This document shows, one piece after another, positions 1 through 22,567 of a stretch of DNA of 64,000 nt (position 1 is the stretch's first letter; each line of letters opens with the position of its first letter). The notes under the pieces were generated by a model, which was given only the letters and a program-made list of their open reading frames with translations, had not been told where the DNA came from and ran no database searches. The stretch covers positions 54,046,929-54,110,928 of the forward strand of contig OY735224.1 of assembly GCA_963457665.1 (NCBI GenBank), read 5' to 3'. Both the position numbers and the translations under genes were made by a program. Source of the DNA: Thysanoteuthis rhombus (lineage: Eukaryota > Mollusca > Cephalopoda > Oegopsida > Thysanoteuthidae).

Positions 1-3000
1 TCAGCCCAATTTGATGGAAATAGCCAATATTGACCGAAAATGCATTTTCACTGCATACATAAGTGAGCCGTCAAAAATGGTCTTTTGAATGTCATTTTTA
101 CCTATCGATTTTATGGCTTTTTCTGGCGAAGTTTGACGTGCTGATTGCAACGGTACCATTGGATTGGTTGGATTTGATGTATTTTTCGATTTCGCCCAAT
201 TTGATGAAAATAGCCAATATTGGTCGAGAAGGCACTTCCAGCACATACATAAGTAAGCCGTCAAAAATGGTCTTTTGAATGTCATTTTTACCTATCGATT
301 TTATGGCTTTTTCTGGCGTAGTTTGACGTGCTGATTGCAACGGTGCCATTGGATCGGGTGGATTTGATGTGTTTTTCGATCCAGCCCAATTTGATGAAAA
401 TAGCCACTATTGGTCGAGAAGGCACTTCCAGCACATACATAAGTTAGCTGTCAAAAATGGTCTTTTGAATGTCATTTTTACCTATCGAATTTATGGCTTT
501 TTCTAGCGTAGTTTGACGTGCTGATTGCAACGGTACCATTGGATCGGGTGGATTTGATGTATTTTCCGATTCAGCCCAATTTGATGGAAATAGCCAATAT
601 TGACCGAAAAATCAATTTTACTGCATAAATAAGTGAGCCATCAAAAATGGTCTTTTGAATGTCATTTTTACCCATCGATTTTATGGCTTTTTCTGGCGTA
701 GTTTGACGTGCTGATTGCAACGGTACCATTGGATCGGGTGGATTTGATGTATTTTTCGACTCATCCCAATTTGATGGAAATAGCCAATATTAACCGAAAA
801 TGCATTTTTACCGCATACATGAGTGAGCCGTCAAAAATGGTCTTTTGAATGTCATTTTTACCTATCGATTTTATGGCTTTTTCTGGCGTAGTTTGACGTG
901 CTGATTGCAACGGTACAATTGGATCGGGTGGATTTGATGTATTCTTCGATCCAGCCCAATTTGATGGAAATAGCCAATTTTGACCGAAAATGCATTTTTA
1001 CCGCATACATATGTGAACCGTCAAAAATGGTCTTTTGAATGTCATTTTTACCTATCGATTTTATGGCTTTTTCTTGCGTAGTTTGACGTGCTGATTGCAA
1101 CGGTACCATTGGATCGGGTGGATTTGATGTATTTTTCGATTCAGCTGAATTTGATGAAAATAGCCGCTAATTGTCAAGATGGCACTTCCAGCACATACAT
1201 AAGTGAGCCGTCAAAAATGGTCTTTTGAATGTCATTTTTACCTATCGATTTTATGGCTTTTTCTGGCGTAGTTTGACGTGCTGATTGCAACGGTACCATT
1301 GGATCGGGTGGATTTGATGTATTTTTCGACTAAGCCCAATTTGATGGAAAAAGCCGCTATTGGTCGGGAAGGCACTTACATAAGGGAGCCATCAAAAATG
1401 GTCTTTTGAATGTCATTTTCACCTATCGATTTTATGGCTTTTTCTGGTGTAGTTTGACGTGCTGATTGCATCGGTACCATTGGATCGGGTGGATTTGATG
1501 TATTTTTCGACTAAGCCCAATTTAATTGAAAAAGTCAATATTGACCGAAAATGCATTTCTACCGCACACATCAATAAGCCGTCAAAAATGGTCTTTTGAA
1601 TGTCATTTTTACCTATCGATTTTATGGCTTTTTCTGGCGTAGTTTGACGTGCAGATTGCAACGGTACCATTGGATCGGGTGGATTTGATGTATTTTTCGA
1701 CTCAGCCCAATTTGATGGAAAAAGCTGCTATTGGTCGAGAAGGCACTTCCATAAGGGAGCCATCAAAAATGGTCTTTTGAATGTCATTTTTACCTATCGA
1801 TTTTATGGCTTTTTCTGGCGTAGTTTGACGTGCTGATTGCAACGGTACCATTGGATAGGGTGGATTTGATGTATTTTTCGACTCAGCCCAATTTGATGGA
1901 AAAAGCCGCTATTGGTCGAGAAGGCACTTCCATTAGGGAGCCATCAAAAATGGTCTTTTGAATGTCATTTTTACCTATCGATTTTATGGCTTTTTCTGGC
2001 GTAGTTTGACGTGCTGATTGCAACGGTACCATTGGATCGGGTGGATTTGATGTATTTTTCGATTCAGCCCAATTTGATGAAAATAGCCGCTATTGGTCGA
2101 GAAGGCACTTCCAGCACATACATAAGTGAGCCGTCAAAAATGGTCTTTTGAATGTCATTTTTACCTATCGATTTTATGGCTTTTTCTGGCGTAGTTTGAC
2201 GTGCTGATTGCAACGGTACCATTGGATCGGATGGATTTGATTTATTTTTCGACTCAGCCCAATTTGATGGAAATAGCCTATATGGACCGAGAAGGCATTT
2301 TTACTGCACACATAAGTGAGCCGTCAAAAATGGTCTTTTGAATGTCATTTTTACCTATCGATTTTATGAATTTTTCTGGCGTAGTTGGACGTGCTGATTG
2401 CAACGGTACCATTGGATCGGGTGGATTTGATGTATTTTTCGATTCAGCTCAATTTGATGGAAATAGCCAATATTGACCAAGAAAGGAATTTTTACTGCAT
2501 ATATAAGTGAGCCATCAAAAATGGTCTTTTGAATGTCATTTTTACCTATCGATTTTATGGCTTTTTCTGGCATAGTTTGACCTGCTGATCGCAACGGTAC
2601 CATTGGATCGGGTGGATTTGATGTATTTTTTGATTCAGCCCAATTTGATGGAAATAGCCAATATTGACCGAAAAATCAATTTTACCGCATATATAAGTGA
2701 GCCGTCAAAAATGGTTTTTTGAATTTCATTTTTACCTATCGATTTTATGGCTTTTTCTGGCGTAGTTTGACGTGCTGATTGCAACGGTAGCATTGGATCG
2801 GGTGGATTTGATGTATTTTTCGATTCAGCCCAATTTGATGGAAATAACAAATATTGACCTAATATGCATTTTTACTGCATACATAAGTGAGCCGTCAAAA
2901 ATGGTGTTTTGACTGTCATTTTTACCTATCGATTTTATGGCTTTTTCTGGCGTAGTTTGACGTGCATATTGCGACGGTACCATTGGATCGGGTGGATTTG

Positions 3001-4263
3001 ATGTATTTTTCGATTCAGCCCAATTTGATTGAAATAGCCAATATTGGTCGAGAACGCACTTCCAGCACATACATAAGTGAGCCGTCAAAAATGGTCTTTT
3101 GAATGTCATTTTTACCTATCAATTTTATGGCTTTTTCTGGCGTAGTTTGACGTGCTGATTGCAACAGTACCATTGGATCGGGTGGATTTGATGTATTTTT
3201 CGATTCAGCCCAATTCGATGGAAATAGCCAATATTGACCAAAAATGCATTTTTACTGCATACATAAGTGAGCCGTCAAAAATGGTCTTTTGAATGTCATT
3301 TTGACCTATCGATTTTATGGCTTTTTCTGGCGTAGTTTGACGTGCTGATTGCAACGGGTCATTGGATTGAGTGGATTTGATGTATTTTTTTGATTCAGCC
3401 CAATTTGAAAGGAATAGCCAATATTGACAAAAAATGCATTTTTACTGCAAGCTGAGCTGTCAAAAATGGTCTTCTGAATGTCATTTTTACCTATCGATTC
3501 TATGGCTTTTTCTGGCATAGTTTGAAGTGCAGATTGCAACGGTACCATTAGATTGGGTGGATTTTATGTATTTTTTGATCCAGCCTAATTTGATGAAAAT
3601 AGCCGGTATTGGTCGAGAAGTCACTCCAGCACATACATAAGTGAGCCGTCACAAATGGTCTTTTGAATGTCATTTTTACCTATCGATTTTATGGCTCTTT
3701 CTGGCGTAGTTTGACGTGCTGATTGCAACGGTACCATAAGATCGGGTGGATTTGATGTACTTCTCGATTCAGCCCAATCTGATGGAAATACCCAATATTG
3801 ACCGAAAATGCATTTTTACCGCACACATCAGTAAGCCGTCAAAAATGGTCTTTTGAATGTCATTTTTACCTATCGATTTTATGGCTTTTTCTGGCGTAGT
3901 TTGACGTGCTGATTGTAACGGTACCATTGGATTGGGTGGATTTGATGTATTTTTTTGATCCAGCCCAATTTGATGAAAATTGCCACTATTGGTCGAGAAG
4001 GCACTTCCAGCACATACATAAGTGAGCCGTCAAAAATGGTCTTTTGAATGTCATTTTTACCTATCGATTTTATGGCCTTTTCTGGCGTAATTTGACTTGC
4101 TGATTGCAACGGGTCATTGGATCTAGTGGATTTTGTGTATTTTTTTGATTCAGCCCAATTTGAAAGAAATAGCCAATATTGACTGAAAATTCATTTTACC
4201 ACATACATAAGTGAGCTGTCAAAAATGGTCTTTTGAATGTCATTTTTGCCTATTGATTTCATG
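1..4263 (+). repeat. Satellite block 1, about 22 head-to-tail monomers
   Basis: Tandem monomers with a period near 190 bp, all in + orientation, starting mid-monomer at the window edge. Landmarks in each monomer, in order: TCAAAAATGGTCTTTTGA, ACCTATCGATTTTATGGC, TTTGACGTGCTGATTGCAAC, GGTACCATTGGATCGGG, then a variable cassette. Cassette A (AATATTGACCGAAAATGCAT) and cassette B (GCTATTGGTCGAGAAGGCAC) alternate irregularly, with a few short C-type monomers around 1330-1960. The last monomers (about 3330-4260) are the most diverged, as expected at an array edge. The block ends at 4263-4265, where satellite ATGGC meets the composite block. No gene is visible; short minus-strand open frames simply follow the repeat. 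Confidence 0.95.
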
Positions 4264-4735
4264 GCGGCGGCCCGAAACGCGTAGCACGTGAGGCAGAGAT
4301 AGGTTGCTCGCTCGATCGATCGATGGAGCTGGTGTTATTAGGTTTTTGTAAGGCCCACGTAGCATGGCTGGGACGGTTATTGGTGAGGGGTGTCCGTAGT
4401 GTCCGTCCCAGGGCGTGGATGTTGGCTTTGTGGGTGGCCTTAGGACAGCCTGATAAGTGTGAGTGGATCTCTGGCCCACGTGGTAGGCGTTTGGGATGGG
4501 TATGCAGTCGGGACACGGAGGGTGGTGGCACTCGTCTGTTGCATTGCTCCGCTGTGCAAGATGTTGGGGAGCACGGAGTTTCTGGATTGGAGAATTCCAA
4601 AAGGTCCATAAGAATGGTTATAGAAAAAAGTGAGTTGAAAGGCTAGGTTGATCTGAGTGATTTTCTCTATTTTTTGGTCCACACAGCGTGTGGAGTGACG
4701 CTTCTTACGGGTCGAGGAGCATGGCATGGGTTTGA
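4264..4735 (+). repeat. Module O' (diverged O module)
   Basis: Starts at the satellite/composite junction with GCGGCGGCCCG, then a short GATC microsatellite (4314-4325; one unit longer in copy 2). It is a diverged relative of O at 8083-8560: the two share GCATGGCTSGGACGGTTA, the phrase around ATCTCTGGCC and the CTCCGCTGTGCAAGATG motif. The 107-codon open frame at 4323-4646 is not preserved as an obvious protein in the related modules, so I do not call a gene. Confidence 0.7.
4630..4686 (+). other. Candidate 57-nt mini-intron in module O'/N
   Basis: Donor GTGAGTTG at 4630, possible branch region TTGATCTGAG, a pyrimidine-rich stretch and acceptor CACACAG ending at 4686. Related segments lie at 7992-8049, 8452-8508 and 11317-11374. 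In the diverged O version the tract sequence has changed but stays pyrimidine-rich, and the donor and the CAG/CGTGTG acceptor are kept. Equivalents are at 23607-23663 in copy 2 and 47986-48042 in copy 3. Length suits insect short introns. No transcript evidence is available to me. Confidence 0.4.
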
Positions 4736-5622
4736 CTGAATATTTTCAGACAAGTCTGGATGCGCCGCAAGTGAACAATACGCAATATAGAAGTGGGAGC
4801 GGCGAACAGCAATCAGTCAAGGTGAGTAGCAAGCTAGCCGGCTTAAGAGGCCCCAGACTCGGTGAAAGGGCTAACCACCCCACTGGGTGATTGGAGAACC
4901 GTACGACGGGCGAAAGTGGAAGATAAAGACGGAAAGGCAAACCAGAGGATCACGAGGACAGCGGCGGCATCCTCGGACCGGCTGCCAGCAAGTGACGGAG
5001 CAATAGTATATATCAGTGCTACGACCAACAGTTTGTGCTGGGTGGTCATCAACCTGTGCACGGGTCAACATACGACGCTGGGGACCTGTAAACATAGAAG
5101 AAAACTTTGGACACTTTTGGTTGAAGCTCCTAGACGCCAGGCGAGAAATAACACGGGACAGACGGCGAACAGAGGCGTGACGAGAAGAGGAAGACTCAGC
5201 TTACGCCCTAGTCTTAAACCTGAGAAGAGAGCAGGTGCCACAGGATCACGATGGGAAGCCCAGACACGAGGAGACGGCGGGCCGACGACGACGACGAAGA
5301 GATCGTAGGTATACATTTGTTTATAATTACGTTTGCCACCCGAAGCAGAGATTATGCTAAACAAGTCACGATATCCAGTGATCTCTCTTCCTCTCTCTCT
5401 CTCTCGTAGCCCAGCAGAGCATGAGGATGGACGCAAAGAGAGGGCAGCGGTTGGCTACCTACACGCCGGGACCACTAGCTGGCATAAGTACCAGTCGATG
5501 TTTACGTTCGAAATCAACAGAGTAACCGTTTGGGAAGGAACGATACGAAGAGACGACGAGCGGACGACGAGCCGACGAGATCGTAGTTGTCCTTTTGTTT
5601 ACAATTACGTTTGCCACCCGAA
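4736..5622 (+). repeat. Module N, first instance
   Basis: Begins near GACTGAATATTTTCAG and runs to the CCACCCGAACCG phrase where M1 starts. Contains GTACGACGGGCGAAAGTGG, TTTGTGCTGGGTGGTCATC, TTGTTTATAATTACGTTTGC, a TC tract and a purine-rich triplet-like stretch of GACGACGAGCGG type before 5585. It is repeated at 8509-9470 and in part at 6115-6670. AAGGTGAGTAGC near 4814 resembles a splice donor and the TC tract followed by CGTAG resembles an acceptor, but the donor is altered in copy 2. No recognisable protein. Confidence 0.7.
5386..5405 (+). repeat. TC microsatellite in N
   Basis: Short (TC)n run after TCTCTTCC and before CGTAGCCCAGCAGAG. The same tract is about 10 bp longer in copy 2 (24350-24385) and equal in length in copy 3. 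Confidence 0.9.
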
Positions 5623-6114
5623 CCGCGCGAAGCGGACATCCAACACGACACATTGCCGACAACAGCCGACTAACCTCCCGGGGCGGACACTCGTTCCTTC
5701 ACGATAAGCCTTTCCGTGAAGGTGCTCCCTCTAACATTGTCAAAACATCGAACTCGTGTAACAACTTTTGGAATTTTTTTGAAAATACGCTCCCAGAGCC
5801 AGTTATCGCATTCATCACGTCTACCCACCTCTGGCCGATGCTGCCATACCGGTTAGAGCGCGCTGTCGACATTCTGACCCATAGAAAATGGCTTTAGTTC
5901 GATCCTCGAAAAGCCCTACGAACATCGAAGTCTGCGTTCAGGCGAACCGAGTTGCTTTCCACGCTAACCGACTGACGAACTGGAGGTTCTGCAGGCCCGG
6001 GCAGAGACTGTTTCTGTCTACGACTACGGGACAGAGAAAAACTTTGAAAAATTAGGAAAGGGGATAGGCAAGCCAGCTGCGCCAGCTAGCGTTCCCCTCT
6101 CTACGATGCTCGAC
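5623..6114 (+). repeat. Module M1
   Basis: Module of about 490 bp starting at CCGCGCGAAGCGGACATC and ending at CTACGATGCTCGAC. Inside: a hairpin at 5696-5722 (CCTTCACG, 11-nt loop, CGTGAAGG), the phrase GTGTAACAACTTTTGGAATT, a tRNA-like segment at 5833-5915, then AACCGACTGACGAACTGG and GGAAAGGGGATAGGCAAGCC. Six M modules occur per composite block. Confidence 0.75.
5833..5915 (+). pseudogene. tRNA-like relic in M1 (SINE-head-like)
   Basis: The segment starts GGCCGATGCTGCC and continues ACCGGTTAGAGCGC, close to the D-arm of Ile-type tRNAs (GGTTAGAGCG), with GCT/AGC able to pair as a D-stem. It ends with GTTCGATCCTCG, a near-consensus B box with the T-loop TTCGATC and a T-stem pairing at 4 of 5 positions. 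A-box to B-box start spacing is about 54 nt, longer than the usual ~44 but within what Pol III tolerates. No convincing anticodon arm, so this is a decayed or SINE-type tRNA derivative rather than a working gene. Confidence 0.4.
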
Positions 6115-6670
6115 TGGCGAGAGTGGAAGATAAAGACGGAAAGGCAAACCAGAGGATCACGACGACAGCGGCAGCATCCTCGGACCGGCGAACAGATGTG
6201 TGACAAGAAGAGGAAAACTCAACTTACGCCTTAGTCTTAAACCTGAGAAGAGAGCAGGTGCCACAGGATCACGATGGGGAGCCCAGACACGAGGAGACGG
6301 TGAATCAACGACGACAACCAAGAGATCGTAGGTATACATTTGTTTATAATTACGTTTGCCACCAGAAGCAGAGATTATGTTAAACAAGTCACAATATCCA
6401 GTGATCTCTCTTCCTCTCTCTCTCTCTCTCTCTCTCGTAGCCCAGCAGAGCGTAAGGATGGACGCGAAGAGAGGGCAGCGGTTGGCTACCTACACGCCGG
6501 GACCGCTAGATCGCACAAGTACCAGTCGATGTTTACGTTCGAAATCAACAGAGTCACCGTTTGGGAAGGAACGACACGAAGAGACGACGAGCGGACGACG
6601 AGCCTACGAGGACGAAGAGGACGAAGAGATCTGGTTGTCCTTTTGTTTACAATTACGTTTGCCACCCGAA
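6115..6670 (+). repeat. Partial N module with internal deletion
   Basis: Matches N from about 4910 onward but lacks about 186 bp: CGGACCGG is joined directly to CGAACAG, which are far apart in full N (near 4980 and 5166). The shared CGG at the join suggests a microhomology deletion. It then continues through the TTGTTTATAATTACG phrase, a longer TC tract and the purine-rich GACGACGAG / GACGAAGAG stretch (about 6575-6632). Confidence 0.65.
6404..6436 (+). repeat. TC microsatellite
   Basis: A 33-bp TC-rich tract. Copy 3 (49760-49792) has the same length; copy 2 (25384-25414) is 2 bp shorter. Confidence 0.9.
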
Positions 6671-7167
6671 CCGGGCGAAGCGGACATCAAAGACGACACG
6701 GTGCCGACAACGGCCGACTAACCTCCCGGGGCGGACAAACATTCCTTCACGATAAGCCTTTCCGTGAAGGTGCTCCCTCCAATATTGTCAAAACATCGAA
6801 TTCGTGTAACAACTTTTGGAATTTTTTTGAAAATACGCTCCCAGAGCCAGTTATCGCATTCATCACGCCTGCCCACCTCTGGCCGATACTGCCATACCGG
6901 TTAGAGCACACTGTTGGCATTCTGACCCATAGAAAATGGCTTTAGTTCGATCCTCGAAAAGCCCTACGAACATCGAAGTCTGCGTTCAGGCGAACCGAGT
7001 CGCTTTCCACGCTAACCGACTGACGGACTGGGGGGGCAGCTGCGGGCCCGGGCAGCGACTGTTTCTGTCTACGACTACGGAACGAAAAAAAAAACTTTGA
7101 AAAATTAGGAAAGGGGATAGGCAAGCCAGCTGCGCCAGCCAGCGTTCCCCTCTCTACGATGCTCGAC
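6671..7167 (+). repeat. Module M2
   Basis: Full M module with the hairpin at 6744-6770 and a tRNA-like segment at 6881-6963. A run of seven Gs near 7030 followed by two further GGG runs is a possible G-quadruplex and is not in the other M modules. Confidence 0.75.
6881..6963 (+). pseudogene. tRNA-like relic in M2
   Basis: Same 83-bp segment as in M1, with GGTTAGAGCAC in the D-arm region and the B-box-like GTTCGATCC intact. Confidence 0.38.
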
Positions 7168-7688
7168 GGTCACGACGCGACAATTATAAGATGGTTACAA
7201 TGATCGACCCTTAGCCGGGCGAAGCGGACATCAAAGACGACACGGTGCCGACAACGGCCGACTAACCTTCCGGGGCAGACAAACGTTCCTTCCGGATGAG
7301 CCTCTCCGTGAAGGTGCTCCCTCTTACATTGTCAAAACATCGAATTCGTGTAACAACTTTTGAAATTTTTTCAAAAATACGCTTCAAGAGCCAGTTATCG
7401 CATTCATCACGTCTGCCCACCTCTGGCCGATGCTGCCATACCGGTTAGAGTGCGCTGTCGACATTCTGACCCATAGAAAATGTCTTTAGTTCGATCCTCG
7501 AAAAGCCCGTACGAACATCGAAGTCTGCGTTCAGGCGAACCGAGTTGCTTTCCACGCTAACCGACTGACGAACTGGAGGTTCTGCAGGCCCGGGCAGAGA
7601 CTGTTTCTGTCTACGACTACGGGACGAAGAAAAACTTTGAAAAATTAGGGAAGGGGATAGGCAAACCAGGTGCACCAGCCAACGCTGC
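7168..7688 (+). repeat. Linker plus module M3
   Basis: A 47-bp linker (GACAATTATAAGATGGTTAC region), also found before M5 and M6, leads into M3 at 7215. The hairpin at 7288-7314 has decayed (CCTTCCGG against CGTGAAGG). The tRNA-like segment is at 7425-7507. M3 ends GGTGCACCAGCCAACGCTGCC and joins module O. Confidence 0.7.
7425..7507 (+). pseudogene. tRNA-like relic in M3
   Basis: Same 83-bp segment; GGTTAGAGTGC in the D-arm region, B-box-like GTTCGATCC kept. Confidence 0.38.
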
Positions 7689-8451
7689 CAGTTCCAAACA
7701 ACAACTGGCAGGGGACCATATTCAGGAAGGAGGATAGGCTAGCCTTGGGGCTGCTACACACATCTCACTTCCTCTACGACTCTGATCGTTCGGGGCTCAG
7801 ACTGGGCAGGCAACACAAGCCACACCACAACAAACCTGTGATCGAACGCGTTCAGGGCCGGTAGGCAGTCAGGAGAGGGAGGGTCGTCGTTACTTGTACC
7901 GTCGACGGCTTCGTTCCGCAAACTTGTCGGGGAGCGGCAAGTTTGTAATTGGAGACTTCCACAAGCTGTAGAAGAAGGGTTAGAGAGAATAGTGAGTTGA
8001 AAAGCTAAGTCGATCTGAGAGACTATCCCCTGTTCTCCGGTGCGTGCAGCGTGTGCAGAGTGACGCTGCTTACGGGTCGGGAAGCATGGCTCGGACGGTT
8101 AGCCGGGAGGGAAGTCGTTTTGCCTGGATGTCGAGTAGCGAGAGGGACACGCGAGCCGTGTGCGCCAGACACCACCGCCTGCTCCTCCAAGCAGGACTGG
8201 CAGCCGACCATTTGACTATTGTGCCGTCCCAAGTCAGGGCGGGGATGTCGGCTGTGTGGGCTGCAGAAGACCCTGATGACTGTTGCTCGATCTCTGGCCG
8301 ACGTCGCACGCGTTTGGGATCGGTATGCAGTCAGGAGACGGAGGGTGGTGGCATTCGTCTGGTGCATGCCTCCGCTGTGCAAGATGTCGGGGAGCACAGA
8401 CTTCTGGATTGGAATATTCCACAAGGTCTATAAGAAGGGTTTTAGAAAAAA
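7689..8451 (+). repeat. Module O, first full instance
   Basis: Starts around GTTCCAAACAACAACTGGC and runs through GGATAGGCTAGCCTTGGGG, CACAAGCCACACCACAACAA and GGGTCGTCGTTACTTGTACC, a mini-intron-like segment (7992-8049), GCATGGCTCGGACGGTTAGC and CTCCGCTGTGCAAGATGTC. Repeated at 11015-11650. Both strands carry open frames of 60-130 codons here; they overlap one another and show no recognisable family, so no gene is called. Confidence 0.7.
7992..8049 (+). other. Candidate 58-nt mini-intron in module O
   Basis: Donor GTGAGTTG, GATCTGAGAGACTATCC in the branch region, pyrimidine-rich CCCCTGTTCTCC and acceptor GTGCAG before CGTGTG. Copies at 26970-27027 and 51348-51405. Confidence 0.35.
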
Positions 8452-8508
8452 GTGAGTTGAAAGGCTAGGTCGATCTGAGTGATTTTCTCTATTTTTTGGT
8501 CCACACAG
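8452..8508 (+). other. Candidate 57-nt mini-intron at the O/N junction
   Basis: Near-identical to 4630-4686: donor GTGAGTTG, TTTTCTCTATTTTTTGG tract, acceptor CACACAG before CGTGTGG. Removing it would join the frame ending GFRKK (from 8219) to VWSDASYGSGS, a phrase that resembles VQSDAAYGSGS at the same place in the diverged O module. Copies at 27430-27486 and 51808-51864. Confidence 0.4.
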
Positions 8509-9470
8509 CGTGTGGAGTGACGCTTCTTACGGGTCGGGGAGCGTGGCATGTGTTTGACTGAATATTTTCAGAAAAGGTTGGATGCGCCGCAAGTGAACGA
8601 TACGCAATATAGAAATGGGAGCGGCGAACAGCAGTCCACCCAGGTGAATAGCAAGCTGGCCGGCTTAAGAGACCCCAGACTCAGTGAGAGGGCTAGCCAA
8701 CCCTCTGGGATGATTGGAGAACCGTACGACGGGCGAAAGTGGAGGATAAATGCGGAAAGGCAAACCAGAGGATCACGACGACAGCAGCGGCACCCTCGGA
8801 CCGGCTGCCAGGAAGTGACGGAGCAATAGTATATACCAGTGCTACGACCAACAGTTTGTGCTGGGTGGTCATCAACCTGTGCACGGGTCAACGTACGACG
8901 CTGGGGCCCTGTAAACATAGAAAAACTTGGGACACTTCTGGTTGAAGCTCCAACACGCCAGGCGAGGACTGACATGGGACAGACGGCGAACAGAGGCGTG
9001 ACGAGAAGAGGAAAACTCAAGTTACGCCCTAGTCTTGAACCTGAGAAGAGAGCAGGTGCCACAGGATCACGATGGGGAGCCCAGACACGAGGAGACGGCG
9101 AGCAGATGACGAGCCAACGACGACAACGAAGAGATCGTAGGTATACATTTGTTTATAATTACGTTTGCCACCCGGAGCAGCGATTATGTTAAACAAGTCA
9201 CGATATCCAGTGATCTCTCTTCCTCTCTCTCGCTCCTAGCCCAGCAGAGCGTGAGGATGGACGCGAAGAGAGGGCAGCGGTTGGCTACCTACACGCCGGG
9301 ACCGCTAGCTCGCATAAGTACCAGTCGATGTTTACGTTCGAAATCAACAGAGTCACCGTTTGGGAAGGAACGACACGAAGAGACGATGAGCGGACGACGA
9401 GCCGACGAGGACGAAGAGGACGAAGAGATCGTAGTTGTCCTTTTGTTTACAATTACGTTTGCCACCCGAA
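8509..9470 (+). repeat. Module N, second instance
   Basis: Full N module, about 3.8 kb downstream of the first. Carries GTACGACGGGCGAAAGTGG, TTTGTGCTGGGTGGTCATC, TTGTTTATAATTACGTTTGC, a short interrupted TC tract (about 9220-9235) and the purine-rich GACGAGGACGAAGAGG stretch. The donor-like AAGGTGAGT of the first N reads CAGGTGAAT here. Open frames on both strands (up to 164 codons on the minus strand) look accidental. Confidence 0.7.
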
Positions 9471-9949
9471 CCGGGCGAAGCGGATATCAAAGACGACAAG
9501 GTGCCGACAACGGCCGACTGACCTCCCGGGGCGGACAAACATTCCTTCACGATAAGCCTTTCCGTGAAGGTGCTCCCTCTAACATTGTCAAGACATCGAA
9601 TTCGTGTAACAACTTTTGAAATTTTTTTGAAAATACGCTCCCAGAGCCAGTTATCGCATTCATCACGTCTGCCCACCTCTGGCCGATGCTGCCATACCGG
9701 TTAGAGCGCGCTGTCGGTATTCTGACCCATAGAAAATGGCTTTAGTTCGATCCTCGAAAAGCCCTACGAACATCGAAGTCTGCGTTCAGGCGAACCGAGT
9801 TGCTTTACACGCTAACCGACTGACGGACTGGAGGGGCTGCTGCAGGCCCGGGCAGAGACTACGGGACGGAGAAAAACTTTCAAAAATTAGGAAAGAGGAT
9901 AGGCAAGCCAGCTGCGCTGGCCAGCGTTCCCCTCTCTACGGTGCTCGAC
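9471..9949 (+). repeat. Module M4
   Basis: Full M module: hairpin 9544-9570, tRNA-like segment 9681-9763. A short deletion removes the TGTTTCTGTCTACGA phrase seen in M1-M3. Confidence 0.75.
9681..9763 (+). pseudogene. tRNA-like relic in M4
   Basis: Same 83-bp tRNA-like segment with GGTTAGAGCGC and GTTCGATCC. Confidence 0.38.
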
Positions 9950-10495
9950 GGTCACGACGCGACAATTATAAAATGGTTACAATGATCGTCCCTCAGCCGG
10001 GCGAAGCAGACATCAAAGACAAGACGGTGCCGACAACGGCCGACTGCCGACTAACCTTCCGGGGCAGACACTCGTTCCTTCACGATAAGCCTCTCCGTGA
10101 AGGTGCTCCCTCAAATATTGTCTAAACATCGAATTCGTGTAACAACTTTTGAAATTTTTTTGAAAATACGCTCCCAGAGCTAGTTATCGCATTCATCACG
10201 TTTGCCCGCCTCTGGCCGATGCTGCCAAACCGGTTAGAGCGCGCTGTCGGCATTCTGACCCATAGAAAATGGCTTTAGTTCGATCCTCGAAAAGCCCTAC
10301 GAACATCGAAGTCTGCGTTCAGGTGAACAGAGTCGATTTCCCCGCTAACCGACTGACGGACTTGAGGATCTGCAGGCCTGGGCAGAGACTGTTTCTGTCT
10401 ACGACTACGGGACGAAGAAAAACTTTGAAAAATTAGGAAAGGGGATAGGCAAACCAGCTCCGACAGCCAGCGTTCCCCTCTCTACGGTGCTCGAC
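9950..10495 (+). repeat. Linker plus module M5
   Basis: Linker with ACAATTATAAAATGGTTAC, then M5 from 9997 with hairpin 10077-10103 (stem intact, loop ATAAGCCTCTC) and tRNA-like segment 10214-10296. A small duplication, GCCGACT twice, near 10040. Confidence 0.7.
10214..10296 (+). pseudogene. tRNA-like relic in M5
   Basis: Same 83-bp segment; CCAAACCGGTTAGAGCGC in place of CCATACCGG. Confidence 0.38.
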
Positions 10496-11014
10496 GGTCA
10501 CGACGCGACAATTATAAAATGGTTACAATGATCAACCCTTAGCCGGGCGAAGCGGACATCAAAGACGACACGGTGCCGACAACGGCAGACTGCTGACTCA
10601 CCTTCCGGGGCGGACACTCGTTCCTTCACGATAAGCCTCTCCGTGAAGGTGCTCCCTCTAACGTTGTCAAAACATCGAATTCGTGTAACAACTTTTGGAA
10701 TTTTTTTAAAAATACGCTCCCAGAGCCAGTTATCGCATTTATCACTTCTGCCCGCCTCTGGCCGATGCTGCCATACCGGTTAGAGCGCGCTGTCGGCATT
10801 CTGACCCATAGAAAATGGCTTTAGTTCGATCCTCGAAAAGCCCTACGAACATCGAAGTCTGCGTTCAGGCGAACCGAGTTGCTTTACGCGCTAACCGACT
10901 GACGGACTCGAGGGTCTGCTGGCCTGGGCAGAGACTGTTCCTGACTACGACTACGGGACGAAGAAAAACTTAGGAAAGGGGATAGGCAAACCAGGTGCAC
11001 CAGCCACCGCTGCT
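10496..11014 (+). repeat. Linker plus module M6
   Basis: Same linker, then M6 from 10543 with hairpin 10623-10649 and tRNA-like segment 10760-10842. The end is shortened (GAAAAACTTAGGAAAGGGG) and joins O at GCACCAGCCACCGCTGC, as M3 does. Confidence 0.7.
10760..10842 (+). pseudogene. tRNA-like relic in M6
   Basis: Same 83-bp segment with GGTTAGAGCGC and GTTCGATCC. Confidence 0.38.
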
Positions 11015-11650
11015 TGTTCCAAACAACAACTGACAGGGGAGCATATTTAGGAAGGAGGATAGGCTAGCCTTGGGGCTGCTACACACATCTCACTTTCTCT
11101 ACGACTCTGATCGTTCGGGGCTCAGACTGGGAAGACAACACAAGCCACACCACAACAAACCTGTGATCGAACGCGTTTGGGGCCGGTAGGCCGTCAGGAG
11201 AGGGAGGGTCGTCGTTACTCGTACCGTCGACGGCTTCGTTCCGCAAACGGGTCGGGGAGCAGCAAGTTTGTAATTGGAGACTTCCACAAGCTGTAGAAGA
11301 AGGGTTAGAGAGAATAGTGAGTTGAAAAGCTAAGTCGATCTGAGAGACTATCCCCTGTTCTCTGGTGCGTGCAGCGTGTGCGGAGTGACGCTGCTTACGG
11401 GTCGGGAAGCATGGCTCGGACGGTTAGCCGGGAGGGAAGTCGTTTTGCCTGGATGTCGAGTAGCAAGAGGGACACGCGAGCCGTGTGCGCCAGACACCAC
11501 CGCCTGCTCCTCCAAGCAGGACTGGCAGCCGACCATTTGACTATTGTGCCGTCCCAAGTCAGGGCGGGGATGTCGGCTGTGTGGGCTGCAGAAGACCCTG
11601 ATAAGTGTTGCTCGATCTCTGGCCGACGTCGCACGCGTTTGGGGCCGGTA
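11015..11650 (+). repeat. Module O, truncated at the transglutaminase segment
   Basis: Repeats 7689-8330 closely. Homology stops after CGCACGCGTTTGGGGCCGGTA, where the first O reads TTTGGGATCGGTATGCAG. From here the sequence is transglutaminase intron. The break is the same in all three composite copies. Confidence 0.7.
11317..11374 (+). other. Candidate 58-nt mini-intron in truncated O
   Basis: Same arrangement as 7992-8049, differing by one base in the tract (TCTCTGG). Copies at 30295-30352 and 54673-54730. Confidence 0.35.
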
Positions 11651-11689
11651 GGATTTGGATGGTAATCGTTCCAATTCGCTTGTTTCCAG
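11651..11689 (+). other. Residual upstream intron and splice acceptor of transglutaminase exon
   Basis: About 39 bp that match no module. Ends in a pyrimidine-rich GCTTGTTTCCAG, a good 3' splice site directly before the exon. The rest of the original intron has been replaced by module O. Confidence 0.7.
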
Positions 11690-11855
11690 GGTTCTTCTGC
11701 TGTGGACCAGCTCCGTTGAAAGCTATCAAGAATGGAGAAGTCAACCAAGTATTTGACACTAACTTCATCTTCCCGGAATTAAACTCCGACCGCGTTTATT
11801 GGCTGAGAAACCCGCAGAGCGGCAGATGGGAGATTGTGCACGTTGAAAAAGATGC
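11690..11855 (+). CDS. Transglutaminase catalytic-core exon, isolated copy 1
   Basis: A single 166-bp exon. Read with one base of the preceding codon it gives about 55 residues beginning GFFCCGPAPLKAIKNGEV and continuing through FDTNFIFPELNSDRVYWL to VEKDA. This matches the segment just after the catalytic Asp of animal transglutaminases, where the family has CCGPxPVxAIKxGxV followed by DxPFVFAEVNxD. The NSD corresponds to the Asn-x-Asp that helps bind calcium in factor XIII. Transglutaminases cross-link proteins by joining glutamine to lysine; in arthropods they act in clotting and cuticle. The acceptor TTTCCAG and donor GC/GTAAGT are consensus. The left boundary splits a Gly codon and the right splits an Ala codon, both fitting the family. 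No neighbouring exon, including those with the catalytic Cys, His and Asp, is visible in the window, so this is a captured or stranded exon, not a whole gene. Family assignment is firm; function of this copy is unknown. Confidence 0.88.
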
Positions 11856-12125
11856 GTAAGTAATTTGATATCTGATAGAAAATAACTAGCGTTTAATGCT
11901 ACCAAGGTACCGAGAAAAATGTATCTTGAAAACGAGACCTACTTTTTGATGCCATATTATCAGAGTAATGACAAAAAAGTATAATTTGCTGTTAAGGATA
12001 ATGGTTATCCGTGCTGTGAAAGATGACAACATATATGAAATATATATATGAAATATACGGATACGCATTACATCTCATGTTCGTGGATGATAGAGGTTTG
12101 CTTTGCAATGACCTTGGTAAAAAAG
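11856..12125 (+). other. Downstream intron remnant of transglutaminase exon
   Basis: Starts with donor GTAAGTAATTTG and continues as AT-rich, module-free sequence with a small direct repeat of ATATATGAAAT near 12031-12052. The satellite resumes at 12126. Identical in arrangement in the other two copies, so this is the right-hand edge of the amplified unit. Confidence 0.75.
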
Positions 12126-15100
12126 TTTTTACCCGTCGATTTTATGGCTTTTTCTGGCGTAGTTTGACGTGCTGATTGCAACGGTACCATTGGATCGGGT
12201 GGATTTGATGTATTTTTCGATTCAGCCCAATTTGATGGAAATAGCCAATATTGACCGAAAATGCATTTTTACCGCATACATAAGTGAGCCGTCAAAAATG
12301 GTCTTTTGAATGTCATTTTTACCTATCGATTTTATGGCTTTTCCTGGCGTAGTTTGACGTGCTGATTGCAACAGTACCATTGGATCGGGTGGATTTGATG
12401 TATTTTTCGATTCAGCCCAATTTGATGATAATAGCTGCTATTGGTCGAGAAGGCTTTTCCAGCACATATACATAAGTGAGCCGTCAAAAATGGTCTTTTG
12501 AATGTCATTTTTACCTATCGATTTTATGGCTTTTTCTGGCGTAGTTTGACGTGCTGATTGCAACGGTACCATTGGATCGGGTGGATTTGATGTATTTTTC
12601 GATTCAGATCAATTTGATGAAAAAAGCCGCTATTGGTCGAGAAGGCACTTCCAGCACATACATAAGTGAGCCGTCAAAAATGGTCTTTTGAATGTCATTT
12701 TTACCTATCGATTTTATGGCTTTTTCTGGCGTAGTTTGACGTGCTGATTGCAACGGTACCATTGGATCGAGTGGATTTGATGTATTTTTCGATTCAGCCC
12801 AATTTGATGATAATAGCCGCTATTGGTCGAGAAGGCTTTTCCAGCACATATACATAAGTGAGCCGTAAAAAATGGTGTTTTGAATGTCATTTTTACCTAT
12901 CGATTTTATGGCTTTTTCTGGCGTAGTTTGACGTGCTGATTGCAACGGTACCATTGGATCGGGCGGATTTGATGTATTTTTCGATCCAGCCCAATTTGAT
13001 GAAAATAGCCAATATTGGTCGAGAAGGCACTTCCAGCACATACATAAGTGAGCCGTCAAAAATGGTCTTTTGAATGTCATTTTTACCTATCGATTTTATG
13101 GCTTTTTCTGGTGTAGTTTGATGTGCTGATTGCAACGGTACCATTGGATCGGGTGGATTTGATGTATTTTTCGATCCAGCCCAATTTCATGAAAATAGCC
13201 ACTACTGGTCGAGAAGGCACTTCCAGCACATACATAAGTTAGCTGTCAAAAATGGTCTTTCGAATGTCATTTTTACCTATCGATTTTATGGCTTTTTCTG
13301 GCGTAGTTTGACGTGCTGATTGCAACAGTACCATTGGATCGGGTGGATTTGATGTATTTTTCGATTCAGCACAATTTGATGAAAATAGCCGCTATTGGTC
13401 GAGAAGGCACTTCCAGCACATACATAAGTGAGCCGTCAAAAATGGTCTTTTGAATGTCATTTTTACCTATCGATTTTATGGTTTTTTCTGGCGTAGTTTG
13501 ACGTGCTGATTGCAACTGTACCATTGGATCGGGTGGATTTGATGTATTTTTCGATTCAGCCCAATTTGATGAAAATAGCCACTATTGGTCGAGAAGGCAC
13601 TTCCAGCACATACATAAGTGAGCCGTCAAAAATGGTCTTTTGAATGTCATTTTTACCTATCGATTTTTTGGCTTTTTCTGGCGTAGTTTGACGTGCTGAT
13701 TGCAACAGTACCATTGGATCGGGTGGATTTGATGTATTTTTCGATTCAGCCCAATTTGATGAAAATAGCCGCTATTGTTCGAGAAGGCACTTCCAGCACA
13801 TACATAAGTGAGCCGTCAAAAATGGTCTTTTGAATGTCATTTTTACCTATCGATTTCATGGCTTTTTCTGGCGTAGTTTGACGTGCTGATTGCAACGGTA
13901 CCATTGGATTGGGTGGATTTGATGTATTTTTCGATTCAGCCCAATTTGATGGAAATAGCCAATATTGACCGAAAATGCATTTTTACTGCATATATATGTG
14001 AGCTGTCAAAAATGGTCTTTTGAATGTCATTTTTACCTATCGATTTTATGGCTTTTTCTGGCGTAGTTTGACGTGCTGATTGCAACGGTACCATTGGTTC
14101 GGGTGGATTTGATGTATTTTTCGATTCAGCCCAATTTGATGAAAATAGCCGCTATTGGTCGAGAAGGCACTTCCAGCACATACATAAGTGAGCCGTCAAA
14201 AATGGTCTTTTGAATGTCATTTTTACCTATCGATTTTATGGCTTTTTCTGGCGTAGTTTGACGTGCTGATTGCAACGGTACCATTGGATCGGGTGGATTT
14301 GATGTATTTTTCGATTTAGCCCAATTTGATGAAAATAGCCGCTATTGGTCGAGAAGGCACTTCCAGCACATACATAAGTGAGCCGTCAAAAGTGGTCTTT
14401 TGAATGTCATTTTTACTTATATATTTTATGGCTTTTTCTGGCGTAGTTTGACGTGCAGATTGCAACGGTACCATTGGATCGGGTGTATTTAATGTATTTT
14501 TCGATTCAGCCCAATTTGATAGAAATAGCCAATATTGACAGAAAATGCATTTTTACCGCATACATAAGTGAGCCATCAAAAATGGTCTTTTGAATGTCAT
14601 TTTTACCTATCGATTTTATGGCTTTTTCTGGCGTAGTTTGACGTGCTGATTGCAACGGTACCATTGGATCGGGTGGATTTGATGTATTTTTCGATTCAGC
14701 ACAATTTGATGAAAATAGCCGCTATTGGTCGAGAAGGCACTTCCAGCACATACATAAGTGAGCCGTCAAAAATGGTCTTTTGAATGTCATTTTTACCTAT
14801 CGATTTTATGGCTTTTTCTGACGTAGTTTGATGTGCTGATTGCAACGGTACCATTGGATCGGGTGGATTTGATGTATTTTTCGACTCAGCCCAATTTGAT
14901 GGAAAAAGCCGCTATTGGTCGAGAAGGCACTTCCATAAGGGAGCCATCAAAAATGGTCTTTTGAATGTCATTTTTACCTACCGATTTTATGCCTTTTCTG
15001 GCGTAGTTTGACGTGCTGATTGCAACGGTACATTTGGATCGGGTGGATTTGATGTATTTTTCGACTCAGCCCAATTTGATGGAAAAAGCCGCTATTGGTC

Positions 15101-18100
15101 GAGAAGGCACTTCCATAAGGGAGACATCAAAAATGGTCTTTTGAATGTCATTTTTACCTATCGATTTTATGGCTTTTTCTGGCGTAGTTTGACGTGCTGA
15201 TTGCAACTGTACCATTGGATCGGGTGGATTTGATGTATTTTTCGACTCAGCCCAATTTGATGGAAAAAGCCACTATTGGTCGAGAAGGCACTTCCATAAG
15301 GGAGCCATCAAAAATGGTCTTTTGAATGTCATTTTTACCTATCGATTTTATGGCTTTTTCTGGCGTAGTTTGACGTGCTGATTGCAACGGTACCATTGGA
15401 TCGGGTGGATTTGATGTATTTTTCGACTCAGCCCAATTTGATGGAAAAAGTTGCTATTGGTCGAGAAGGCACTTCCATAAGGGAGCCATCAAAAATGGTC
15501 TTTTGAATGTCATTTTTACCTATCGATTTTATGGCTTTTTCTGGCGTAGTTTGACGTGCTGATTGCAACGGTACCATTGGATCGGGTGGATTTGATGTAT
15601 TTTTCGACTCAGCCCAATTTGATGGAAAAAGCCGCTATTGGTCGAGAAGGCACTTCCATAAGGGAGCCATCAAAAATGGTCTTTTGAATGTCATTTTTAC
15701 CTATCGATTTTATGGCTTTTTCTGGCGTAGTTTGACGTGCTGATTGCAACGGTACCATTGGATCGGGTGGATTTGATGTATTTTTCGACTCGGCCCAATT
15801 TGATGGAAAAAGCCGCTATTGGTCGAGAAGGCACTTCCATAAGGGAGCCATCAAAAATGGTCTTTTGAATGTCAGTTTTACCTATCGATTTTATGGCTTT
15901 TTCTGGCGTAGTTTGACGTGCTGATTGCAACAGTACCATTGGATCGGCTGGATTTGATGTATTTTTCGATTCAGCCCAATTTGATGGAAAAAGCCACTAT
16001 TGGTCGAGAAGGCACTTCCATAAGGGAGCCATCAAAAATGGTCTTTTGAATGTCATTTTTACCTATCGATTTTATGGCTTTTTCTGGCGTAGTTTGACGT
16101 GCTGATTGCAACGGTACCATTGGATCGGGTGGATTTGATGTATTTTTCGACTCAGCCCAATTTGATGGAAAAAGCCGCTATTGGTCGAGAAGGCACTTCC
16201 ATAAGGGAGCCATCAAAAATGGTCTTTTGAATGTCATTTTTACCTATCGATTTTATGGCTTTTTCTGGCGTAGTTTGACGTGCTGATTGCAACGGTACCA
16301 TTGGATCGGGTGGATTTGATGTATTTTTCGACTCAGCCCAATTTGATAGAAAAAGCCGCTATTGGTCGAGAAGGCACTTCCATGAGGGAGCCATCAAAAA
16401 TGGTCTTTTGAATGTTTTTTTTACCTATCGATTTTATGGCTTTTTCTGGCGTAGTTTGACGTGCTGATTGCAACGGTACCATTGGATCGGGTTGATTTGA
16501 TGTATTTTTCGACTCAGCCCAATTTGATGGAAAAAGCCGCTATTGGTGTAGAAGGCACTTCCATAAGGGAGCCATCAAAAATGGTCTTTTGAATGTCATT
16601 TTTACCTATAGATTTTATTGCTTTTTCCGGCGTAGTTTGACGTGCTGATTGCAACGGTACCATTGGATCGGGTGGATTTGATGTATTTTTTGACTCAGCC
16701 CAATTTGATGGAAAAAGCCGCTATTGGTCGAGAAGGCACTTCCATAAGGGAGCCATCAAAAATGGTCTTTTGAATGTCATTTTTACCTATCGATTTTATG
16801 GCTTTTTCTGGCGTAGTTTGACGTGCTGATTGCAACGGTACCATTGGATCGGGTGGATTTGATGTATTTTTCGACTCAGCCCAATTTGATGGAAAAAGCC
16901 GCTATTGGTCGAGAAGGCACTTCAATAAGGATGCCATCAAAAATGGTCTTTTGAATGTCATTTTTACCTATCAATTATATGGCTTTTTCTGGCGTAGTTT
17001 GACGTGCTGATTGCAACGGTACCATTGGATCGGGTGGATTTGATGTATTTTTTGACTCAGCCCAATTTGATGGAAAAAGCCGCTATTGGTCGAGAAGGCA
17101 CTTCCATAAGGGAGCCATCAAAAATGGTCTTTTGAATGTCATTTTTACCTACCGATTTTATGGCTTTTTCTGGCGTAGTTTGACGTGCTGATTGCAACGG
17201 TACCATTGGATCGGGTGGATTTATGTGTTTTTTGACTCAGCCCAATTTGATGGAAAAAGCCGCTATTGGTCGATAAGGCACTTCCATAAGGGCGCCATCA
17301 AAAATGGTCTTTTGAATGTCATTTTTACCTATCGATTTTATGGCTTTTTCTGGCGTAGTTTGACGTGCTGATTGCAACGGTACCATTGGATTGGGTTGAT
17401 TTGATGCATTTTTCGACTCAGCCCAATTTGATGGAAGAAGCCGCTATTGGTTGAGAAGGCACTTCCATAAGGGAGCCATCAAAAATGGTCTTTTGAATGT
17501 CATTTTTACATATCGATTTTATGGCTTTTTCTGGCGTAGTTTGACGTGCTGATTGCAACAGTACCATTGGATTGGATGGATTTGATGTATTTTTCGACTC
17601 AGCCCAATTTGATGGAAAAAGCCGCTATTGGTCGAGAAGGCACTTCCATAAGGGAGCCATCAAAAATGGTCTTTTGAATGTCATTTTTACCTATCGATTT
17701 TATGGCTTTTTCTGGCGCAGTTTGACGTGCTGATTGCAACGGTACCATTGGATCGGGTGGATTTGATGTAATTCTCGACTCAGCCCAATTTGATGGAAAA
17801 AGCTGCTATTTACGAGAAGGCACTTCCATAAAAGAGCCATCAAAAATGGTCCTTTGAATGTCATTTTTACCTATCGATTTTATGGCTTTTTCTGGCGTAG
17901 TTTGACGTGCTGATTGCAACGGTACCATTGGATCGGGTGGATTTGATGTATTTTTTGATTCAGCCCAATTTGTTGGAGATAGCCAATATTGACCGAAAAT
18001 GCATTTTTACTGCATACATAAGTGAGCTGTCAAAAATGGTCTTTTGAAGGTCATTTTTACCTATTGATTTTATGGCTTTTTCTGGCGTAGTTTGACGTGC

Positions 18101-21100
18101 TGATTGCAACGGTACCATTGGATCGGGTGGATTTGATGTATTTTTCGACTCAGCCCAATTTGATGGAAAAAGCCGCTATTGGTCGAGAAGGCACTTCCAT
18201 AAGGGAGCCATCAAAAATGGTCTTTTGAATGTCATTTTTACCTATCGATTTTATGGCTTTTTCTGGTGTAGTTTGACGTGCTGATTGCAACAGTACCATT
18301 GGATTGGGTTGATTTGATGCATTTTTCGACTCAGCCCAATTTAATGGAAGAAGCCGCTATTGGTTGAGAAGGCACTTCCATAAGGGAGCCATCAAAAATG
18401 GTCTTTTGAATGTCATTTTTACATATCGATTTTATGGCTTTTTCTGGCGTAGTTTGACGTGCTGATTGCAACAGTACCATTGGATTGGATGGATTTGATG
18501 TATTTTTCGACTCAGCCCAATTTGATGGAAAAAGCCGCTATTGGTCGAGAAGGCACTTCCATAAGGGAGCCATCAAAAATGGTCTTTTGAATGTCATTTT
18601 TACATATCGATTTTATGGCTTTTTCTGGCGTAGTTTGACGTGCTGATTGCAACAGTACCATTGGATTGGATGGATTTGATGTATTTTTCGACTCAGCCCA
18701 ATTTGATGGAAAAAGCCGCTATTGGTCGAGAAGGCACTTCCATAAGGGAGCCATCAAAAATGGTCTTTTGAATGTCATTTTTACCTATCGATTTTATGGC
18801 TTTTTCTGGCGCAGTTTGACTTGCTGATTGCAACGGTACCATTGGATCGGGTGGATTTGATGTAATTCTCGACTCAGCCCAATTTGATGGAAAAAGCTGC
18901 TATTTACGAGAAGGCACTTCCATAAAAGAGCCATCAAAAATGGTCCTTTGAATGTCATTTTTACCTATCGATTTTATGGCTTTTTCTGGCGTAGTTTGAC
19001 GTGCTGATTGCAACGGTACCATTGGATCGGGTGGATTTGATGTATTTTTTGATTCAGCCCAATTTGTTGGAGATAGCCAATATTGACCGAAAATGCATTT
19101 TTACTGCATACATAAGTGAGCTGTCAAAAATGGTCTTTTGAAGGTCATTTTTACCTATTGATTTTATGGCTTTTTCTGGCGTAGTTTGACGTGCTGATTG
19201 CAACGGTACCATTGGATCGGGTGGATTTGATGTATTTTTCGACTCAGCCCAATTTGATGGAAAAAGCCGCTATTGGTCGAGAAGGCACTTCCATAAGGGA
19301 GCCATCAAAAATGGTCTTTTGAATGTCATTTTTACCTATCGATTTTATGGCTTTTTCTGGTGTAGTTTGACGTGCTGATTGCAACAGTACCATTGGATTG
19401 GGTTGATTTGATGCATTTTTCGACTCAGCCCAATTTAATGGAAGAAGCCGCTATTGGTTGAGAAGGCACTTCCATAAGGGAGCCATCAAAAATGGTCTTT
19501 TGAATGTCATTTTTACATATCGATTTTATGGCTTTTTCTGGCGTAGTTTGACGTGCTGATTGCAACAGTACCATTGGATTGGATGGATTTGATGTATTTT
19601 TCGACTCAGCCCAATTTGATGGAAAAAGCCGGTATTGGTCGAGAAGGCACTTCCATAAGGGAGCCATCAAAAATGGTCTTTTGAATGTCATTTTTACCTA
19701 TCGATTTTATGGCTTTTTCTGGCGCAGTTTGACGTGCTGATTGCAACGGTACCATTGGATCGGGTGGATTTGATGTAATTCTCGACTCAGCCCAATTTGA
19801 TGGAAAAAGCTGCTATTTACGAGAAGGCACTTCCATAAAAGAGCCATCAAAAATGGTCCTTTGAATGTCATTTTTACCTATCGATTTTATGGCTTTTTCT
19901 GGCGTAGTTTGACGTGCTGATTGCAACGGTAACATTGGATCGGGTGGATTTGATGTATTTTTCGACTCAGCCTAATTTGATGGAAATTGCCAATATTGAC
20001 CGAAAATTCATTTTTACCGCATACATAAGTGAGCCATCAAAAATGGTCTTTTGAATGTCATTTTTACCTATCGATCATATGGCTTTTTCTGGCGTAGTTT
20101 GACGTGCTGATTGCAACGGTACCATTGGATCGGGTGGATTTGATGTATTTTTCGATTCAGCCCAATTCGTTGGAAATAGCCAATATTGACCGAAAATGCA
20201 TTTTTACTGCATACATAAGTGAGCCATCAAAAAAGGTCTTTTGAAGGTCATTTTTACCTCTCGATTTTATGGCTTTTTCTGGCGTAGTTTGACGTGCTGA
20301 TTACAACGCTACCATTGGATCGGGTGGATTTGATGTATTTTTCGATTCAGCCCAATTTGATCGACAAAGCCGCTATTGGTCGAGAAGGCACTTCCATAAG
20401 GGAGCCATCAAAAATGGTCTTTTGAATGTCATTTTTACCTATCGATTTTATGGCTTTTTCTGGCGTAGTTTGACGTGCTGATTTCAACAGTACCATTGGA
20501 TTGGTTGGATTTGATGTATTTTTCGACTCAGCCCAATTTGATGGAAAAAGCCGCTATTGGTCGAGAAGGCACTTCCATAAGGGAGCCATCAAAAATGGTC
20601 TTTTGAATGTCATTTTTACCTATCGATTTTATGGCTTTTTCTGGCGCAGTTTGACGTGCTGATTGCAACAGTACCATTGGATCGGGTGGATTTGATGTAA
20701 TTATCGACTCAGCCTTATTTGATGGAAAAAGCTGCTATTTACGAGAAGGCACTTCCATAAGAGAGCCATCAAAAATGGTCCTTTGAATGTCATTTTTACC
20801 TATCGATTTTATGGCTTTTTCTGGCGTAGTTTGACGTGCTGATTGCAACGGTAACATTGGATCGGGTGGATTTGATGTATTTTTCGACTCAGCCTAATTT
20901 GATGGGAATTGCCAATATTGACCGAAAATTCATTTGTACCGCATACATAAGTGAGCCATCAAAAATGGTCTTTTGAATGTCATTTTTACCTATCGATCAT
21001 ATGGCTTTTTCTGGCGTAGTTTGACGTGCTGATTGCAACGGTACCATTGGATCGGGTGGATTTGATATATTTTTCGATTCAGCCCAATTCGTTGGAAATA

Positions 21101-22075
21101 GCCAATATTGACCGAAAATGCATTTTTACTGCATACATAAGTGAGCCATCAAAAAAGGTCTTTTGAAGGTCATTTTTACCTCTCGATTTTATGGCTTTTT
21201 CTGGCGTAGTTTGACGTGCTGATTGCAACAATACCATTGGATCGGGTGGATTTGATGTATTTTTCAACTCAGCCCAATTTGATGGAAATAGCCAATATTG
21301 ACCGAAAATGCATTTTTACCGCATACATAAGTGAGCCGTCAAAAATGGTCTTTTGAATGTCATTTTTACCTATCGATTTTATGGCTCTTTCTGGCGTAGT
21401 TTGACGTGCTTATTGCAACGGTACCATTGGATCGGATGGATTTGATGTATTTATCGATTCAGCCCAATTTGATGAAATAGCTGCTATTGGTCGAGAAGGC
21501 ACTTCCAGCGCATAGATAAGTGAGCCGTCACAAATGGTCTTTTGAATGTCATTTTTACCTATCGATTTTATGGCTTTTTCTGGCGTAGTTTGACGTGCTG
21601 ATTGCAACAATACCATTGGATCGGGTGGATTGGATGTATTTTTCGATTCAGCTCAATTTGATTGAAATAGCCAATATTGAACGAAAATGCATTTTTACCG
21701 CAAACATAAGTGAGCCGTCAAAAATTGTCTTTTGAATGTCATTTTTACCTATCGATTTTATGGATTTTTCTGGCGTAGTTTGACGTGCTGATTTTAATGG
21801 TACCATTGGATCGGGTGGATTTGATGTATTTTTCGACTCAGCCCAATTTGATGGAAATAGCCAATATTGACTGAAAATGCATTTTTACTGCTACATAAGT
21901 GAGCCGTCAAAAATGGTCTTTTGAATGTCATTTTTCCCTATCGATTTTATGGCTTTTTCTGGCGTAGTTTGACGTGCTGATTGCAACGGTACCATTGGAT
22001 CGGTTGGATTTGATGTATTTTTCGATTCAGCCTAATTTGATGGAAATAGCTGCTATTGGCCGAAAATGCATTTCT
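12126..22075 (+). repeat. Satellite block 2, about 53 monomers, B/A then mainly C type
   Basis: The first part (12126 to about 14870) is 190-bp monomers, mostly type B with some A. From about 14880 most monomers are the 181-bp type C (CTTCCATAAGGGAGCCATC), with interspersed A types after 17940. The last ones, 21240-22075, are mixed and more diverged. All monomers share one orientation. The block ends at TGCATTTCTA, where a 5S-derived relic begins. No gene seen. Confidence 0.95.
17403..20503 (+). repeat. Higher-order repeat of five to six monomers in block 2
   Basis: The marker GATGCATTTTTCGACTCAGC recurs at 17403, 18316 and 19410, spacings of 913 and 1094 bp, which differ by exactly one 181-bp monomer. 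Accompanying markers such as AGCTGCTATTTACGAGAAGG repeat in register. A second pair, GGTAACATTGGATCGGG near 19929 and 20851, is spaced by about 922 bp. Confidence 0.75.
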
Positions 22076-22162
22076 AACATTTAAGTACTGATCAGGCTCG
22101 ATGCTGCCTAACATTGGTGATCGAACAAGAACTGGTACTCCCAGCGTGATTTGAATGTAAGC
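22076..22162 (-). pseudogene. 5S rRNA-derived relic, truncated at its 3' end
   Basis: Read on the minus strand, the segment runs from GCTTACATTC to CAGTACTTAAATG and aligns without gaps to nucleotides 1 to about 85 of insect 5S rRNA. By my count about 54 of the first 80 positions agree, and 38 of 50 over nucleotides 31-80. Conserved parts include GTTCTTGTTCGATCACC, TTAGGCAGCATCGAGC (the A-box region of the internal promoter) and CAGTACTTAAATG. Most changes are C-to-T or G-to-A, as in an old decayed copy. The last third of the gene is missing and the satellite begins at that point. A GATATAA lies about 20 bp upstream of its 5' end. It could also be the head of a 5S-derived SINE. Confidence 0.7.
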
Positions 22163-22459
22163 AAGTGCTGAATTCAGGGGCTTATATCGGTTTCACAACG
22201 TTTAAAGAATCTGGTTGAAAACTGGACGGGGGGTGCGAAAAAAAAAGATTTGTCTTGCTCACTGTTCCTGGTGTTCCCAAACTGGGCTATGTTAAACAAG
22301 TCATGATATCCAGTGATCTCTCTCTCTCTCTCTCTCTCGTAACGCAACGGAGCGTGAGGCCGGACGCGAAGAGATGGCTGTGGTTGGCTACCTACACGCT
22401 TGGACTGCTAGCCTACACAAGTACCAGTCGATGTTTACGTTCGAAATCAACAGTCACCG
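22163..22459 (+). repeat. Unplaced sequence and N-like fragment, left end of copy 2
   Basis: 22163-22285 matches nothing else in the window and includes GACGGGGGGTGCG followed by nine As. From 22286 (TATGTTAAACAAGTCATGAT) the sequence follows N through its TC tract (22317-22338) to CGTTCGAAATCAACAGTCAC. Confidence 0.6.
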
Positions 22460-22488
22460 TTTTTTCTCTGTCTGTCCGTCTGTCCGTT

Positions 22489-22522
<34 letters not shown>

Positions 22523-22532
22523 ACTCTCTCTC

Positions 22533-22567
<35 letters not shown>
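22460..22567 (+). repeat. TGTC and TC compound microsatellite
   Basis: TCTGTCTGTCCG-type tetranucleotide units pass into a long (TC)n tract with a few interruptions. It appears only in copy 2. The open frames over it on both strands are low-complexity artefacts. Confidence 0.95.

Follow-up and report, generated by a model that had tools for sequence, protein, structure and literature searches.

The window, by which we mean the whole 64-kb stretch of DNA that was analyzed, is made of satellite arrays that alternate with composite units, three in number and each about 7.86 kb long, all on the forward strand (unit 1, 4264–12126; unit 2, 23237–31104; unit 3, 47620–55482). Repeat analysis identified an array of about 181/190-bp monomers at 1–4265, and further arrays follow unit 1 (12126–22074), unit 2 (31104–47621), and unit 3 (55482–63946), the last reaching about the end of the window. 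In each unit, a GC-rich module (53% GC in unit 1) is present in about two tandem copies, at offsets of about 3.3 to 3.8 kb; these copies are about 90–93% alike over long matches, contain shorter repeats and, in unit 1, are followed by the exon block described below. Several types of sequence are thus repeated as a block, which makes this a composite satellite, or higher-order repeat, with three units in the window. The type of monomer also varies between arrays: those that follow units 1 and 3 often show runs of 181-bp spacing, and the one that follows unit 2 is dominated by 190-bp spacing. Units 1 and 3 directly adjoin satellite on their left side, while a 1.16-kb insert (22074–23237) separates unit 2 from the satellite. 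This insert comprises a TCTG/TC microsatellite and an imperfect inverted repeat (22712–23137; 80% identity in a self-match of 446 columns) related to the module sequence. On either side of unit 1 (4243–4264 and 12126–12148), the satellite breaks off at almost the same point of the monomer, with about 22 bp of similar, nonidentical satellite sequence at each edge, which may represent a target-site duplication or be due to chance. A search of Rfam at gathering thresholds and a tRNA scan gave no hits.

The exon block (473 bp, 11653–12125 in unit 1) occurs three times in identical form and nowhere else in the window. It contains an exon-like stretch of 166 nt at 11690–11855 on the forward strand, with its first full codon at 11692 and a single open frame, which reads FFCCGPAPLKAIKNGEVNQVFDTNFIFPELNSDRVYWLRNPQSGRWEIVHVEKD. 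The two other copies (30668–30833 and 55046–55211) are identical to the first one and have the same orientation; there is no inverted copy within the window. Upstream of the exon is a putative intron remnant of 37 bp (11653–11689), which has a pyrimidine-rich tract and CAG at its end and starts where the match between the two module copies of unit 1 (6671–8325 with 9997–11650) stops, i.e. at 11650. Downstream, the exon is followed by GTAAGT and by a second putative intron remnant (11856–12125), whose GC content (32% over 11856–12105, compared with 53% in the module) is unlike that of the module; similarity to the satellite begins, among the matches listed, only at 12126. These flanks would derive from the introns of the parental gene. 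The position of the three copies, their open frame and their splice-like edges, all proposed in the initial annotation, were verified on the sequence of the window, as were the location of the exon, with the GC-rich module on one side and the satellite on the other, and its multiplication together with the unit.

We determined the identity of the exon by comparing its translation with proteins of known structure. The best match in a phmmer search of PDB chains was 1g0d_A (E 2.6e-9), and all 17 distinct PDB sequences retrieved at E values up to 1 were transglutaminases/glutamyltransferases or coagulation factor XIII. Conversely, when human TGM2 was used as a tblastn query, it matched exactly the three copies of the exon, with an E value of 5.6e-9 and 18 of 40 residues identical. 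A search of Pfam with the 54 residues of the exon gave no match at E values up to 1, and the assignment to the transglutaminases is therefore based on the matches obtained with PDB and tblastn. From these sequence comparisons, the homology is beyond chance, in agreement with the transglutaminase origin initially proposed, and the exon belongs to the core domain of the metazoan-type transglutaminases. The aligned part corresponds to TGM2 residues 367–406. The catalytic Cys, His, and Asp of TGM2 all lie before residue 367, and none of the three is present in the exon, while the N-x-D motif that it holds is the calcium-site motif. Thus, the description of the exon as part of the catalytic core was correct as to the domain and the motif but not as to the catalytic residues. 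The parts of TGM2 that carry the catalytic residues had no significant tblastn match elsewhere in the 64-kb window. The exon is therefore a part of a transglutaminase rather than the gene of an enzyme.

The initial annotation had credited the exon with a consensus acceptor and a consensus donor. When all candidate sites of unit 1 were ranked with rough matrices, the acceptor came 4th of 580 AG sites, while the donor, in spite of its GTAAGT, came 25th of 409 GT sites and was preceded by a nonconsensus C at position −1. Both sites thus look usable as judged from their sequence, the donor not being outstanding. All three copies retain an intact frame and both splice-like sites, which is also what a working exon would show and counts against the idea of a passive fragment. 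Yet the intact open frame is weak support for a use of the exon, because half of such exons remain stop-free at about 10% random substitution: in simulations ignoring indels (4,000 trials per level), 69% were stop-free at 4.9% and 50% at 9.9% substitution. As the three copies are identical, they leave no variation on which selection could be tested. Because of its length of 166 nt, the exon has ends that differ in phase, and when a second copy was joined to the first one, it was read out of frame and ran into a stop codon. The three copies can therefore not be serial exons of one protein, and we rejected the possibility that they are tandem exons of a single gene.

To compare the copies, we aligned the units and the sequence around them. 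Units 1 and 3, which are offset by about 43.4 kb, differ at a single position of 7,863, and the identity extends well into the satellite, with 3 differences over 12,770 positions (1–12770 compared with 43357–56126). After 12770 there is an indel of 952 bp (about five monomers), followed by 3,229 bp without any mismatch, up to 15,999. Past about 16,000, the arrays that follow units 1 and 3 differ by about 2–5% and by indels. Most of the indels between arrays have lengths close to a multiple of the monomer, which is what unequal exchange would produce. In view of the near-identity of units 1 and 3, one of them is possibly a false duplicate of the assembly. Between units 1 and 2 there are 77 mismatches, of which 53 are in the left 1.2 kb (4264–5499 compared with about 23237–24455), 24 in 5500–10708, and none beyond. 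This concentration of mismatches at the left indicates that units 1 and 2 are mosaics, as would be found after gene conversion or exchange. The first four spacings between monomer anchors after the exon are the same in all three units.

One consequence of this uneven distribution is that 1,915 bp around the exon, which is near the middle of this stretch, are free of differences between units 1 and 2, an observation that also counts against a passive fragment. If the differences were evenly spread, a gap of that length would be found with a probability of 0.022 (20,000 simulations), a value that applies to a stretch picked after it had been seen. Since it was chosen in this way and extends well past the exon, the stretch is likely due to gene conversion or chance, although constraint could also play a role. 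The exon makes up only about 2% of a 7.9-kb block that was duplicated whole. The earlier statement that the exon itself had been amplified three times was therefore not upheld. With only 3 differences over 12,770 positions, the three copies go back to a single capture, propagated through duplication of the composite block together with satellite, and three separate captures were rejected because the block and its flanks are identical.

We also looked for further parts of the gene, whose neighboring exons, had they flanked the locus in the right order, would have made these copies ordinary exons within satellite-filled introns. The tblastn search with TGM2, used whole or as 60-residue pieces, detected no second transglutaminase stretch in the window. 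The next-best matches, among those listed (to E 94), had E values of 3.7 with whole TGM2 and of 0.078 with the pieces, the latter being on the minus strand with 34% identity. Likewise, Pfam at E values up to 0.01 detected nothing in 146 of the 218 stop-free frames of unit 1 and of the insert at 22074–23237 (116 of 188 in unit 1, those of at least 42 residues, and 30 of 30 in the insert). This is a weak test, since Pfam missed the exon itself, and tblastn is the better one. The claim that the window contains no other exon of the gene thus agrees with both searches, and no neighboring exons in correct order were found within the 64 kb. Relatives were not found elsewhere either: there were none in phage records, a degenerate pattern of the exon had no relative in viral contigs, and its protein gave 50 pattern matches in viral contigs and 133 in prokaryote genome contigs, none of which was confirmed. 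The satellite string was absent from the viral contigs. Strings of the exon and satellite sequences had no match in the text of the papers searched, and in searches for a transglutaminase exon or captured exons in satellite, none of the listed titles and beginnings of abstracts corresponded to the present case.

These data are probably best explained by a captured fragment of a transglutaminase gene that rides passively in a composite satellite repeat. A fragment of about 0.47 kb, comprising one exon and parts of both adjacent introns, would have been captured, apparently at the DNA rather than at the RNA level, and joined to the edge of the GC-rich repeated module, next to the 181/190-bp satellite. 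The composite block of module, exon fragment, and satellite would then have multiplied through segmental duplication together with unequal exchange, leading to three identical exons. A processed pseudogene would have lost its introns at the exon ends. Here, splice-like sites and intron-like flanks are found on both sides, with no neighboring exons, which argues against retroposition, and this possibility was rejected.

That the exon instead belongs to a working transglutaminase gene, with introns filled with satellite and composite repeats and its other exons outside the window, appears unlikely. The repeats would then have multiplied one exon, and any one mRNA could include only a single copy of it, as with mutually exclusive exons. 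Such a gene would account for the intact frame and splice-like sites, and giant introns filled with satellite do exist, as in Drosophila kl-3 (PMC6508621), but tblastn detected no further transglutaminase stretch within the 64 kb (nor did Pfam, with the weakness mentioned above), and copies spliced in series lose the frame. It is quite improbable that the exon was captured by a Helitron or a Pack-type DNA transposon, of which the module would be the body. These elements do capture gene fragments, but no transposase or helicase domain was found in the 146 frames scanned, and an inverted-repeat scan of 4200–12200 disclosed two imperfect pairs of 31 nt, both internal, with no pair at the ends of the unit. 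This counterevidence is weak, since the domain would be missing from nonautonomous elements, and terminal inverted repeats are absent from Helitrons. In favor of such an element, Helentrons carrying satellite-like arrays have been reported in the Pacific oyster (PMC7492417).

Two further possibilities would ascribe a function to the exon. It would be a working passenger if the satellite were transcribed and provided the exon to chimeric mRNAs, or small RNAs that tune the host transglutaminase, which we consider very improbable. The more specific proposal that the unit is a source of piRNAs or siRNAs matching the transglutaminase mRNA and lowering its expression, by analogy with the action of Su(Ste) on Stellate, seems likewise very improbable. 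Repeats with sequence resembling host genes are known sources of piRNAs, those of Su(Ste) repressing Stellate in Drosophila, but for the AT-chX piRNAs an identity of 76% was insufficient to repress vasa within D. melanogaster (PMC7874207), and the three copies of the exon share one orientation, with no inverted copy in the window.

The presence of gene sequence within repeat units is already known in kind, and composite repeats can carry coding sequence. Tandem composite repeats are an annotated class of repeats on ape sex chromosomes (PMC11168930), and D4Z4 is a macrosatellite that carries DUX4 and is tied to its expression (PMC12963445). Our units resemble these in being tandem composite units with gene sequence, but they contain just one internal exon from a gene with several exons, and no complete coding unit was found. 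Amplified repeats with sequence resembling host genes are also found in Stellate/Su(Ste) and in AT-chX, a pericentromeric cluster with internal tandem repeats, whose piRNAs silence the D. mauritiana vasa, more than 90% complementary, in hybrid testes (PMC7874207). The production of piRNAs is demonstrated in those systems, while our unit is at most a candidate source; furthermore, Stellate retains the exon–intron structure of its parent gene (PMC7874207), whereas one exon is present here. As in the Y-loop genes kl-3 and kl-5, the exon is surrounded by satellite, kl-3 spanning at least 4.3 Mb for a coding sequence of about 14 kb (PMC6508621). However, their exons are those of one transcribed gene, whereas we found three identical copies and no other exon in 64 kb. 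An exon dispersed together with duplication units has also been described (PMC13015009), namely the 3′ terminal exon of SEPTIN14, spread by segmental duplication with CICP, a processed pseudogene; in the present case, the exon is internal, with intron-like flanks on both sides. The initial view that host exons within satellite units are unusual thus holds only in part, since macrosatellites and other repeats with gene sequence are known from D4Z4/DUX4 (PMC12963445) and from Stellate/Su(Ste) and AT-chX (PMC7874207).

The locus is a clear and sharply bounded case of a gene fragment within a composite satellite repeat, and it should help in studies of the formation and spread of these units. Transglutaminases act in clotting and elsewhere by crosslinking proteins, and a role of the exon through small RNAs or chimeric transcripts would for this reason matter if it were true.
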